NCBI RefSeq assembly: GCF_003955715.1
Contig: NZ_CP034463.1
Span: 8,184,001-8,248,000 of the forward strand
Origin: Streptomyces aquilus
Lineage (GTDB): Bacteria; Actinomycetota; Actinomycetes; Streptomycetales; Streptomycetaceae
DNA: 64,000 nt
Direction: 5' to 3'
A program made the translations under genes and the position numbers. The notes under the pieces were generated by a model, which worked only from the letters and a program-made list of their open reading frames with translations, had not been told where the DNA came from and made no database searches. This document shows positions 31,330-36,200 of this stretch, piece after piece. Each line of letters opens with the position of its first letter. Positions within the stretch are counted from its first letter, which is position 1.

Positions 31330-32172
31330 ATGGCCAACGTCGTTCGTGCCGCTCTGGTCCAGGCCACCTGGACCGGCGACACCGAGTCCATGGTGGCGAA
31401 ACACGAGGAGCACGCCCGCGAGGCGGCCCGCCAGGGTGCGAAGATCATCGGCTTCCAGGAAGTGTTCAACGCCCCCTACTTCTGCCAGGTCCAGGAGCCG
31501 GAGCACTACCGGTGGGCCGAGCCGGTGCCCGACGGGCCGACCGTGCGCCGTATGCAGGACCTCGCCCGCGAGACCGGCATGGTGATCGTCGTGCCGGTCT
31601 TCGAGGTCGAGCAGTCCGGCTTCTACTACAACACCGCCGCCGTGATCGACGCCGACGGCACCTTCCTCGGCAAGTACCGCAAGCACCACATCCCGCAGGT
31701 GAAGGGCTTCTGGGAGAAGTACTACTTCAAGCCGGGCAACGCGGGTTGGCCGGTCTTCGACACGGCCGTGGGGAAGGTCGGCGTCTACATCTGCTACGAC
31801 CGCCACTTCCCGGAGGGCTGGCGCCAACTGGGCCTGAACGGCGCCCAGCTCGTCTACAACCCCTCCGCCACCCACCGCGGCCTGTCCTCCTACCTCTGGC
31901 GGCTCGAACAGCCGGCCGCCGCCGTCGCCAACGAGTACTTCGTCGCCGCGATCAACCGCGTCGGCGTCGAGGAGTACGGCGACAACGACTTCTACGGGAC
32001 GTCCTACTTCGTCGACCCGCGCGGTCAGTTCGTCGGGGACACGGCCAGCGACAAGGTCGAGGAACTCCTCGTCCGGGACCTCGACTTCGACCTCATCGAA
32101 GAGGTACGGCAGCAGTGGGCCTTCTACCGCGACCGCAGGCCCGACGCCTACGAGGGGCTGGTGCAGCCGTGA
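31330..32172 (+). CDS. Nitrilase-superfamily amidohydrolase, beta-ureidopropionase-like (copy 1)
   Basis: A 280-residue CN-hydrolase with the catalytic triad Glu44 (GFQEVF), Lys118 (YRKHH) and Cys155 (ICYDRHFPEG). It most resembles N-carbamoyl-beta-alanine/N-carbamoyl-D-amino-acid amidohydrolases, which cleave the carbamoyl group to CO2, ammonia and an amino acid: the last step of reductive pyrimidine or hydantoin breakdown. It overlaps the transaminase start by GTGA. The ATG at 31330 follows AAGGAGCAG, a strong ribosome site. A paralogue of exactly the same length is at 35358; large stretches are identical, including all catalytic positions. Confidence 0.92.
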   Translation: MANVVRAALVQATWTGDTESMVAKHEEHAREAARQGAKIIGFQEVFNAPYFCQVQEPEHYRWAEPVPDGPTVRRMQDLARETGMVIVVPVFEVEQSGFYYNTAAVIDADGTFLGKYRKHHIPQVKGFWEKYYFKPGNAGWPVFDTAVGKVGVYICYDRHFPEGWRQLGLNGAQLVYNPSATHRGLSSYLWRLEQPAAAVANEYFVAAINRVGVEEYGDNDFYGTSYFVDPRGQFVGDTASDKVEELLVRDLDFDLIEEVRQQWAFYRDRRPDAYEGLVQP

Positions 32173-33452: not shown

Positions 33453-33477
33453 CAGTACACAGCAAGGGATGTACGCC

Positions 33478-35025
33478 ATGACCACCACCTTGGACCACTT
33501 GGCACCGGCCCTGTCCGTCCGCCAGGTCCTCACCCTGGAACGGGTGCTCGCCGGGGAGCCCGAGGTGGTGGCCGGCGCGGCCCAGCTCGACCGGGCCGTG
33601 CGCTGGGTGCATGTCGCCGAGGCCGCCGACGTGGGCGTCATGCTCAGCGGCGGCGAGATGGTCCTCACCACCGGGGTGCTGCTCGCCGGTGACGAGGGCG
33701 CGCAGGCCGAGTACATCCAGTCGCTGCACCGCGCGGAGGCCGCGGCCGTCGTCCTCGGTCTGGGCCGGGCCTTCCCGGCCCCGCCGGACGTCATGCGCCG
33801 GGCCGCCGAGCGGTGCGGGCTGCCCATGGTCGTCCTCCACCGGCCGTTCCCCTTCGCGGAGTTGACCGAGGAGGTGCAATCGCGGCTGGTCCGGCGGAAG
33901 TTCGCGGCCGTGAGCCTCTCCGAGGCCGTCCGGACCGCCCTCACCGGCCTCATCACCGCGGGCGCCCCGCTCCAGCGGCTGCTCGACGAGGTCGCCCAGC
34001 ACAGCGCCTGCCCGGTCGTCGTCACCAACCTCGCCCACCGCGTCCTCGCCACCGCGGGGGAGCGGCCGGCCGTGGACGACGTGCTGCGCGACTGGGAGCG
34101 TATCGCCCGACAGGCCGGCGGCACCGAGGGCGACGGCTGGATCCGCGCCGAACTGGGCGGACGCGGGGAACGCTGGGGGCAGATCCTGCTCTGCGGCTAC
34201 CGCGGCGACACCGCCTCCGGACGGCTGCTCGCCGACCGGGCCGCCGAGGCCCTCGTCCTGCACCGCATGCTCGGCGGCAACTCCGCCCACACCTGGGAGG
34301 AGCAGTCCGCGCAGAGCCTGCTCACCGACCTCGTCAGCGGGGTCGTACCGGCGCGCCAGCTGCTGCCGCGGGCGCGGGCCGCCGGACTGCCCGTCAACCG
34401 GCGGACGTTCGTGCCGCTGGTCGTACGGGACGGTGATCCGGCCGAACTCGACCGGGTGCTGCGGCTGTTGGGGCTGCCGGGGCTCGTCGCCGAGCTCGCC
34501 GACGGGGTCACCGCCGTACTCCTGAGCCTGGCCCGGGACCAGGACGCGGCCGTCCTGACGGCGAACTTCGCGGCGCGGCTGACGCAGACCGTCGTGGCGG
34601 CGGCCGACCCGCGCACCGCCTGGGACGACGTCCCCGCCGGGATGCGCGAGGCCCAGCACGTCGCCGACGCGGTCGCCTCCGGGGCGCTCGACCTCCCGGC
34701 CGTCGTGCGCCTCAAGGACGTCCATCTGCGGGGCCTGATACGGCTGTTGCGCGACGACCCGTATGTGCAGTCCTTCGCCGAGCGCGAGTTGGACGGGCTG
34801 CTGTGCGACTCGGGCCCGGGGGAGGGGCTGCTGGCCGTCCTGCGGACGTATCTCGCCACCGGCCGCAACAAGTCCCGCACCGCCCAGCTCCACCACGTCT
34901 CGCGCCCCGCGCTGTACCGGCGCCTCGAAGCGATACAGACCCGGCTCGGCGTCGACCTCGACGATTTCGAGCAGGCCGCCTCGGTGCACATCGCGCTCCT
35001 CGCGCATGACGCGCAACAGAGCTGA
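33478..35025 (+). CDS. PucR-family transcriptional regulator
   Basis: A 515-residue regulator. The N-terminal PucR purine-catabolism domain is at about 10-130 (SVRQVLTLERVLAGEPEVVAG-type start), a GGDEF-like central region follows, and the C-terminal PucR-type helix-turn-helix is at about 445-505 (TYLATGRNKSRTAQLHHVSRPALYRRL). PucR proteins sense nitrogen-rich metabolites and activate purine, allantoin or pyrimidine catabolism. It lies between the transaminase and the second nitrilase and is the obvious local regulator of the block. The ATG at 33478 is preferred to ATG 33469 because AAGGGATG lies 7 nt upstream. Confidence 0.92.
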   Translation: MTTTLDHLAPALSVRQVLTLERVLAGEPEVVAGAAQLDRAVRWVHVAEAADVGVMLSGGEMVLTTGVLLAGDEGAQAEYIQSLHRAEAAAVVLGLGRAFPAPPDVMRRAAERCGLPMVVLHRPFPFAELTEEVQSRLVRRKFAAVSLSEAVRTALTGLITAGAPLQRLLDEVAQHSACPVVVTNLAHRVLATAGERPAVDDVLRDWERIARQAGGTEGDGWIRAELGGRGERWGQILLCGYRGDTASGRLLADRAAEALVLHRMLGGNSAHTWEEQSAQSLLTDLVSGVVPARQLLPRARAAGLPVNRRTFVPLVVRDGDPAELDRVLRLLGLPGLVAELADGVTAVLLSLARDQDAAVLTANFAARLTQTVVAAADPRTAWDDVPAGMREAQHVADAVASGALDLPAVVRLKDVHLRGLIRLLRDDPYVQSFAERELDGLLCDSGPGEGLLAVLRTYLATGRNKSRTAQLHHVSRPALYRRLEAIQTRLGVDLDDFEQAASVHIALLAHDAQQS

Positions 35026-35120
35026 AACATGCCATGACCTGGGAAAACGGCGGTGAAACATGGGATCGCGCGAGGGTGACACCGTGACACGCCGCACGCC
35101 CGCAGACGTGACACGCTGCA
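35013..35120 (+). promoter_or_regulatory. Candidate regulator sites: TGAAACATG pair and GTGACAC triplet
   Basis: TGAAACATG occurs at 35023-35031 and 35054-35062, 31 bp (three helical turns) apart, and in a close form (TGAAACGTG) at 31200. The two downstream copies also read as GCAAC-N6-GAAAC and AAAAC-N6-GAAAC, resembling the GlnR box GTNAC-N6-GAAAC. Further on, GTGACAC is repeated at 35076, 35084 and 35108 (intervals of 8 and 24), the last two within a 14-nt repeat CGTGACACGCYGCA. They precede the second nitrilase/hydantoinase unit. Confidence 0.5.
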
Positions 35121-35152
35121 ACTCAAAGCCCGCTTTCGGACTTCCTAGCCTT

Positions 35153-35333
35153 CTGGGGCGGGCGTCGGAAGTTCCGTCTGCCCCGCGACGCCCGGCACGC
35201 ACTCTCGACGCACCGCGCACAAGCCCAAGTACATCCAGTACGAGGGCTTGCGCGCGGCACGCCGAGAGCACGCACCGGACGCCGCAGGGCCCGCCCTTCG
35301 GGCGGACGACGGCACTTCCGACGCCCGCCCCAG
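35153..35333. repeat. 181-nt branched palindrome (structured RNA or MITE-like element)
   Basis: The outer arms (35153-35172 and 35314-35333) pair perfectly over 20 bp, then CCGTC/GACGG adds 5 bp after one mismatch. An inner 42-bp stem joins 35185-35226 to 35244-35285 around a 17-nt loop. A side hairpin CCGCCC-TTC-GGGCGG (35291-35305) makes a three-way junction. The inner stem has ten mismatches, every one A against C on the plus strand; on the minus strand all ten become G-U pairs. This implies folding of a minus-strand RNA (or minus single strand). It fills most of the 332-bp gap between the PucR gene and the second nitrilase gene; no transposase is present. Confidence 0.85.
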
Positions 35334-35357
35334 CACACCGAGCGACCGGAGGTCCCG

Positions 35358-36200
35358 ATGAGCAGAGTGATCCGTGCCGCCCTCTTCCAGACCGCGTGGA
35401 CGGGCGACAAGGAATCGATGATCCAGGTACACGAGCAGGCGGCCCGCGACGCGGCCGCGCAGGGTGCTCAGGTCCTGTGCTTCCAGGAGCTGTTCTACGG
35501 GCCCTACTTCTGCCAGGTCCAGGACAAGGCGTTCTACGAGTACGCCGAGCAGATCCCGGACGGGCCGATCGTCAAGCGGTTCCAGGCGCTGGCCAAGGAG
35601 CTGGGCATCGTCCTGATCCTGCCGATGTACGAGGAGGAGCAGCCCGGCGTCCTCTACAACACGGCCGCCGTGATCGACGCCGACGGCTCGTACCTCGGCA
35701 AGTACCGCAAGCACCACATCCCCCAAGTCCCGGGATTCTGGGAGAAGTTCTACTTCCGCCCGGGCAACCTGGGCTGGCCGATCTTCGACACCAAGGTCGG
35801 GAAGATCGGCGTCTACATCTGCTACGACCGCCACTTCCCCGAGGGCTGGCGGGCGTTGGGCCTCGCGGGTGCCGAGATCGTCTTCAACCCGTCGGCCACC
35901 TCGCGTGGACTGTCCGCCTACCTGTGGCAGTTGGAGCAGCCGGCGGCGGCCGTCGCCAACGAGTACTTCGTCGGCGCGATCAACCGGGTGGGCGTCGAGG
36001 AGCTGGGCGACAACGACTTCTACGGGACGACCTACTTCGTCGACCCGGAGGCCCAGTTCGTGGGCGAGGTGGCGAGCGACAAGGAGACCGAACTCGTCGT
36101 ACGGGACCTGGACCTGAACAAGCTGCGCGAGGTCCGCGACCGCTGGCAGTTCTACCGGGACCGCCGCCCCGACGCGTACCCGCCGCTGACCGCACCCTGA
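35358..36200 (+). CDS. Nitrilase-superfamily amidohydrolase, beta-ureidopropionase-like (copy 2)
   Basis: A 280-residue paralogue of the enzyme at 31330 with the same triad (Glu44, Lys118, Cys155) and long shared stretches around the active site. Differences concentrate in the first 100 residues and near the C-terminus, so the two may split substrates, for example carbamoyl-beta-alanine versus carbamoyl-beta-aminoisobutyrate or N-carbamoyl-alpha-amino acids. It has GGAGG 9 nt before the ATG and is followed 31 bp later by the hydantoinase, whose product it would hydrolyse. Confidence 0.93.
   Translation: MSRVIRAALFQTAWTGDKESMIQVHEQAARDAAAQGAQVLCFQELFYGPYFCQVQDKAFYEYAEQIPDGPIVKRFQALAKELGIVLILPMYEEEQPGVLYNTAAVIDADGSYLGKYRKHHIPQVPGFWEKFYFRPGNLGWPIFDTKVGKIGVYICYDRHFPEGWRALGLAGAEIVFNPSATSRGLSAYLWQLEQPAAAVANEYFVGAINRVGVEELGDNDFYGTTYFVDPEAQFVGEVASDKETELVVRDLDLNKLREVRDRWQFYRDRRPDAYPPLTAP

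Follow-up and report, generated by a model that had tools for sequence, protein, structure and literature searches.

A dispersed MITE family of Streptomyces with a conserved long hairpin and stem mismatches biased towards G-U pairs on one strand

Comparative sequence data identify the imperfect palindrome at positions 35153–35333 of the analysed stretch of Streptomyces aquilus DNA (64,000 nucleotides of contig NZ_CP034463.1, hereafter the window) as a copy of a widespread non-autonomous transposable element (MITE) with a structured, conserved fold. Mismatches in the stems of this family fall predominantly on one side: they are G-U on one strand and A-C on the other. We consider it probable that selection on the MITE favours a long one-strand hairpin RNA, in the window that of the minus strand, with the DNA itself staying an imperfect palindrome.

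Position, fold and insertion site of the element

The element lies between a PucR-type regulator gene and a hydantoinase operon. The features of the region are:

33469–35025, plus strand: upstream PucR-type regulator gene, from the gene caller, its name taken from the preliminary description
35146–35151, plus strand: putative -10-like box TAGCCT of the downstream operon, from orthologous regions, with a predicted promoter function
35153–35333, minus strand (the strand folding with G-U pairs): whole element, 181 bp including the CTGG/CCAG flanks and 173 bp between them, delimited by folds, empty versus occupied orthologous sites, and relatives with terminal repeats and CTAG flanks
35153–35172: left arm of the outer stem, made up of the flank CTGG and the terminal inverted repeat and pairing with 35314–35333 at 20 of 20 positions
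35180–35226: first arm of the inner stem, 47 pairs as minus-strand RNA, the 42-bp part being 35185–35226, from fold and direct pairing
35227–35243: apical part, a 4-bp GUAC stem with a 5-nt loop, from fold and covariance alignment
35244–35290: second arm of the inner stem, from fold and direct pairing
35291–35305: side hairpin of 6 bp, CCGCCC-TTC-GGGCGG, found in one of the family's subterminal types
35314–35333: right arm of the outer stem, terminal inverted repeat plus flank CCAG, from direct pairing
35358–36200, plus strand: first gene of the downstream hydantoinase operon, from the gene caller, putatively nitrilase/ureidopropionase-like by reading

A preliminary description of the window had proposed a perfect outer stem, a 6-bp side hairpin and an inner stem whose mismatches are all of one kind. 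Direct pairing of the window sequence reproduced both stems: the outer arms pair at all 20 positions, and 35185–35226 with 35244–35285 contain 10 mismatches in 42 pairs, all of them A/C on the plus strand, that is G-U on the minus strand. The side hairpin was present in the fold of the element. Folding of the minus strand lengthens the inner stem to 47 uninterrupted pairs (35180–35226 with 35244–35290; 11 mismatches, all A/C), and a 5-bp stem (35174–35178 with 35308–35312) sits between the outer and inner stems. Such a helix is exceptional, since the longest uninterrupted helix in 80 sampled elements of the family has a median of only 24 pairs on the G-U strand and 19 on the other. RNA folding energies calculated for 35140–35345 were -181.4 kcal/mol for the minus strand (z -18.7) and -137.3 kcal/mol for the plus strand (z -11.6), with none of 200 shuffles per strand doing as well. 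Under equal odds for the two polarities, ten of ten mismatches of one kind would have a two-sided p of about 0.002, and the family-wide data presented below make chance untenable as the cause. A covariance model of the family core (R1) matches the window copy at 35184–35285 on the minus strand with 107 bits, and Rfam 15 at gathering scores gave no match anywhere in the 64-kb window.

The element begins 2 nt after the last base of the -10-like TAGCCT, a box that mostly reads TAGGCT or TAGCCT in the orthologous regions compared. A scan for sigma-70 consensus promoters and terminators found nothing, including at this box. Because both neighbouring genes run on the plus strand, the leader of the operon would carry the weaker-folding strand, and with the insertion placed 2 nt past the box the hydantoinase leader would now start with it. 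All 15 other orthologous PucR-hydantoinase regions read were empty, the occupied ones being those of the window genome and of one further genome (G040). Empty sites read CTCG, CTCC, ACGG and similar, not CTAG, and the occupied flanks in the window are CTGG/CCAG. The window copy and its G040 orthologue share 92.8% identity over the element; in the 5' flank (150 bp) 77% of aligned bases agree, and in the 400 bp downstream 93.5%. The 13 differences within the element comprise two compensatory double changes (four differences), two that make G-U pairs, two that turn G-U into Watson-Crick pairs, three pair breaks and two at unpaired positions; there was no A-C gain. Direct repeats around GTGAAACATG and GTGACACGC-GCA were also seen at 35015–35062 and 35083–35120, between the PucR gene and the -10-like box, and are possible regulator sites. 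The genes at 31330–32172 and 35358–36200, about 3 kb apart, are similar to one another (74% DNA match over part of their length), and both read as nitrilase/ureidopropionase-like.

Spread and mobile-element anatomy of the family

The window copy had been suggested to be a MITE-like dispersed repeat, and this reading was borne out by many copies, terminal repeats and empty orthologous sites, homologous copies being numerous. The S. aquilus genome holds two full copies, the second with 84% identity to the window copy. With 8 candidates scored in each genome, sequence matches were obtained in 47 of 100 genomes. In the same genus, where 13 candidates were scored in each genome, model R1 found the core in 242 of 295 genomes; it did so in 184 of 245 genomes across the order, where 6 of 8 genera were represented, some only weakly, and in 7 of 346 genomes across the phylum, all of its own genus (1 of 218 genera); the own genome is included in each of these four counts. 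Copy numbers and presence counts are lower bounds, since the covariance searches scored 11–16 candidates per genome with stricter filters. Several contigs of one draft genome, G032 (loci L094–L098, L100, L102, L103 and L107), start or stop inside a copy, so that copy number in draft genomes may be underestimated. Near-identical copies are dispersed within single genomes, as indicated by identical bit scores at 13 places in G164 and 14 in G314. A pattern scan of named genomes returned at least 115 stretches; among the 80 matches listed almost all were from Streptomyces, the others being one Kitasatospora and three entries named "Actinobacteria bacterium". Matches on plasmids came from 29 records, 27 of Streptomyces and 2 of Embleya. 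The phage records searched gave no match, and a pattern scan of viral contigs gave one locus, which the covariance model matches weakly (24 bits, E 0.08). We found no description of the family in openly readable papers; subscription papers and supplements lay outside this scope, and an earlier description is possible. PMC2267715 does not mention Streptomyces, PMC1590033 names it in a reference only, and the accessible part of PMC4681348 does not describe the family.

Members share CTAG-type flanks, terminal inverted repeats of several types and one common core of about 102 nt. When terminal repeats were sought in the 75 nt to either side of the core, 192 elements had at least 15 of 20 outer pairs, with lengths between the flanks peaking at 161, 171 and 173 bp. 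CTAG, itself palindromic, stands on both sides of 100 of these 192 elements with clear repeats. The side hairpin is present in some end types and absent in others, and one copy (L216) has unlike ends on its two sides. Mobility is shown by comparison, since orthologous sites are empty or occupied and many copies have CTAG boundaries and near-perfect terminal repeats.

The window copy has no room for a transposase of its own. In a complete contig (G038:C1) paired ends lie about 55–170 bp apart, and this genome contains deletion forms of about 55–70 bp with the same ends and no pair of MITE ends about 1 kb apart. An autonomous copy, consisting of core and transposase, was found neither in 50 fetched IS5 loci, none of which contains the core, nor by terminal-repeat pattern searches of selected genomes, in several of which a reversed control pattern matched too, so that only closely paired hits with few mismatches were relied on. 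Elsewhere, two type-C-like ends lie about 536 bp apart (G134:C57:1677-2213), farther than is usual for the family, and longer versions may exist.

IS elements with DUF4096 transposases from the same genus and from other genera of the order have similar ends and CTAG or YTAR flanks, several of them with GGNNTGTC...AAAG-type ends; unlike the MITE, they carry a transposase and, in the fetched loci, lack the hairpin core. Eight of 13 IS ends agree with a MITE end at 11–13 of 16 positions, each better than any of its 200 null draws, and the remaining five are no better than the null. None of the 13 is an exact MITE end, the best agreeing at 13 of 16 positions. According to the consulted part of PMC5493358, IS5 in E. 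coli duplicates Py-T-A-Pu, most often CTAG. The CTAG flanks of the family agree with this YTAR/CTAG target, which alone is not specific to IS5, since IS of further kinds in the loci examined are likewise found at CTAG. The element thus looks related to IS5, and IS5-family (DUF4096) transposases would be the candidates for moving it.

Some copies have an IS at CTAG/YTAR directly beside them (L154, L430, L055 and L102); these are of IS5-like kinds and of a DDE_5 kind, which we take to be IS701-like. MITE ends may serve as landing sites for other IS. The transposases at these four loci were considered as the element's own and set aside, as they look like separate CTAG/YTAR-flanked neighbours, and the transposase beside the copy at L024 is decayed. 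An origin from a retron, attC site or IS200-type element appears less likely, symmetric repeats and CTAG sites being better suited to a DDE element.

Conserved fold and strand polarity

The preliminary description had looked to copies elsewhere for compensatory change, and this was found. From 165 candidates, 150 were foldable, 77 non-redundant and 71 of these were aligned; an earlier core set had left out 13 of 81 distinct cores that were truncated or carried inserts. In the 71 cores 24 of 38 pairs show compensatory change on both sides, 96.2% of cells are paired as compared to 30–53% for slid partners, and 0 of 500 shuffles reach any of five structure measures. In the apical helix 14 of 16 pairs changed on both sides. 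All 80 sampled elements fold better as RNA on the G-U strand, with medians of -149 versus -108.5 kcal/mol.

Copies also keep the strand bias noticed in the window, G-U being far above A-C in the core, in the terminal repeats and in events on the tree. Counting 161 of 184 distinct cores (those of 102 nt only) over 44 of 48 columns, we obtained 1464 G-U, 48 A-C and 303 other mismatched cells out of 7084, and in columns with a Watson-Crick majority G-U still exceeded A-C by 268 to 47. Comparisons of cores with at most four differing bases contributed 36 distinct changes between Watson-Crick and G-U, 4 involving A-C and 19 others. Parsimony on the tree placed 130 events from Watson-Crick to G-U, 18 to A-C and 72 to other mismatches, cells and tree events not being fully independent of one another since the copies are related. 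In the outer 20 bp there were 126 G-U, 32 A-C and 90 other mismatches.

We then distinguished four gene contexts for 151 of the 192 elements, according to whether neighbouring genes transcribe the G-U strand, the other strand, both or neither. The G-U share was 0.87–0.91 in the core and 0.69–0.88 in the terminal repeats, and the selection for folding of one strand proposed for the window copy is thus consistent with all four contexts. The polarity is a property of the element itself, being found in every context and also in the terminal repeats. Its independence of the strand transcribed by the neighbours argues against purely readthrough-based selection. It implies selection on the strand of the element itself, something that a 3'-UTR role by itself leaves unexplained. 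On that strand the element is kept able to fold over its length into a long hairpin: G-U mismatches, tolerated by the folding strand, accumulate and A-C mismatches are avoided, so that the DNA is not a perfect palindrome.

If a long hairpin RNA of one strand is what is selected, the selected entity would be the RNA of the G-U strand. In transcripts crossing the element the duplex would probably act as a cis-acting processing, stability or insulating module, and most likely as a substrate of RNase III. Cells tend to delete long perfect DNA palindromes, and G-U pairs would allow a strong RNA hairpin without one. We tentatively regard a selfish, mobile hairpin RNA as possible, in which the element would depend on the strand-specific duplex, with the terminal repeats, to spread or to control itself. 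Element-made dsRNA might, for instance, act on transposase or host mRNAs; wobble coding would then combine a strong RNA duplex with a stable, imperfect DNA palindrome open to mobilisation by different IS5 transposases. In antibiotic producers, a family found in most of the same-genus genomes, whose copies lie at stop codons or upstream of genes of ordinary kinds, would bear on operon expression and genome assembly as well as on RNA-seq and sRNA annotation. The wobble pattern on one strand would be a clean signature of selection on the RNA, or a single strand, of a transposon, and it suggests how a genome may encode a long RNA duplex while avoiding a perfect palindrome in its DNA.

Orientation, alternative explanations and known repeats

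Gene context was determined for 225 of 268 elements, using a simple composition-based gene caller rather than annotation and loci distinct by their flanking bases only. Where both neighbouring genes run in the same direction, the G-U strand is the sense strand of 30 elements and the antisense strand of 69 (p 0.0001); the same bias was obtained for 80 loci from genomes rich in near-identical copies (9 sense, 21 antisense) and for the rest (21 and 48). Convergent genes surround 82 elements and divergent genes 37, and 7 lie inside a called gene. As the G-U strand is less often sense in this arrangement of co-directional neighbours, its strong folding seems to carry a cost inside operons, and we take the bias as a hint of an effect at the RNA level. 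CTAG provides the TAG stop codon of a neighbouring gene in the direction of the G-U strand in 51 and in the other direction in 69 of 248 elements, 8 of them being counted in both directions. Among 562 neighbouring proteins no recurrent specific partner was found; the largest cluster comprised 20 proteins at 17 loci, ABC-transporter ATPases by reading.

Strand-specific folding might be selected in single-stranded DNA instead of RNA, the G-U strand folding with G-T pairs while the element transposes or at some other step that involves one DNA strand. It is known that attC sites and IS200-type ends work as folded single-stranded DNA. DNA folding energies favoured the same strand as the RNA energies in 80 of 80 sampled elements, and a polarity that is intrinsic to the element, independent of neighbouring transcription and inclusive of the terminal repeats speaks for this explanation as well. 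Nevertheless we regard it as rather doubtful, given that symmetric terminal repeats and CTAG sites resemble a double-strand DDE element and that an effect on RNA accounts more readily for the orientation bias seen between co-directional genes. An origin of the pattern in mutation rather than selection appears unlikely. Here template switching or hairpin repair would make the arms alike, and a mutation bias specific to one strand, such as deamination where it is exposed, would give G-T and not A-C. Compensatory double changes can indeed arise by template switching in palindromes, which predicts them, and 25 of the 36 recent Watson-Crick/G-U changes (at most four differences) are between G-C and G-U, counted in either direction. 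Changes from A-T are skewed too, though, with 11 to G-U versus 0 to A-C at up to four differences and 22 versus 5 on the tree. Moreover the four transcription contexts show a similar bias, and in a crude check for replication effects top-scoring copies were located on both strands in three genomes (8 + 8 in G468, 6 + 7 in G038 and 13 + 3 in G340). A-C changes are also rarer relative to G-U on internal branches (3 versus 45) than at tips (15 versus 85), a gap which is not large.

Two further explanations dispense with selection on a folded strand. In one of them the hairpin is merely the look of a short palindromic transposon, with no function beyond mobility. Other bacterial MITEs have long stem-loop transcripts as well, as reported in the part of PMC2229807 consulted, and our family lacks a recurrent neighbour gene; but one-strand polarity, compensatory change in the core and conservation above that of the 5' flank are all unpredicted by an ordinary MITE, which makes this distinctly unlikely. 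In the other, the fixed G-U columns go back to a direct repeat that is conserved because a protein binds it in DNA, GTGCGTGC being present in both arms on the same strand and self-complementary with wobble. Nine G-U-majority columns do hold 1196 of the 1464 G-U cells, and the conserved mid-stem contains this repeat. Yet the excess of G-U over A-C persists in the Watson-Crick-majority columns and in the terminal repeats, and the apical helix has changed on both sides at most of its pairs, so a direct repeat is a very improbable source of the pattern.

REP/REPIN sequences and IS200/IS605-type ends are imperfect palindromes dispersed between genes. With about 160–175 bp and long symmetric terminal repeats the Streptomyces element differs from them in layout. 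By analogy, the Streptomyces family may work like folded MITEs of other bacteria. Short bacterial repeats with long stem-loop transcripts have been described, and RNase III cuts Correia transcripts (PMC10969869 and PMC2229807, each as far as available); the word Streptomyces is absent from the main texts of both. Following the same portions of these papers, the Correia elements (CREE/NEMIS) of Neisseria are short, have terminal repeats with TA at the termini and form a hairpin in mRNA that is cleaved by RNase III. They belong to another genus, whereas the Streptomyces family has CTAG flanks, several end types around one core and strand-polarised covariation, and the two are likened by description. 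ERIC/IRU and RUP are short repeats with TA at their termini and folded transcripts (PMC2229807, in part) that occur in other hosts and are likewise compared by description. For ERIC, insertion at 3' ends is stated to alter mRNA levels in the part of PMC10969869 at hand.

A small palindrome, GGGGGTCCCCCCTGCTCGAAGAGCTTGGGGGA or a near relative, was also observed within the core itself, inserted in or replacing a segment at about the same place in copies at L048, L049, L056, L104, L105 and L431, as if a second mini-repeat lands in the hairpin.
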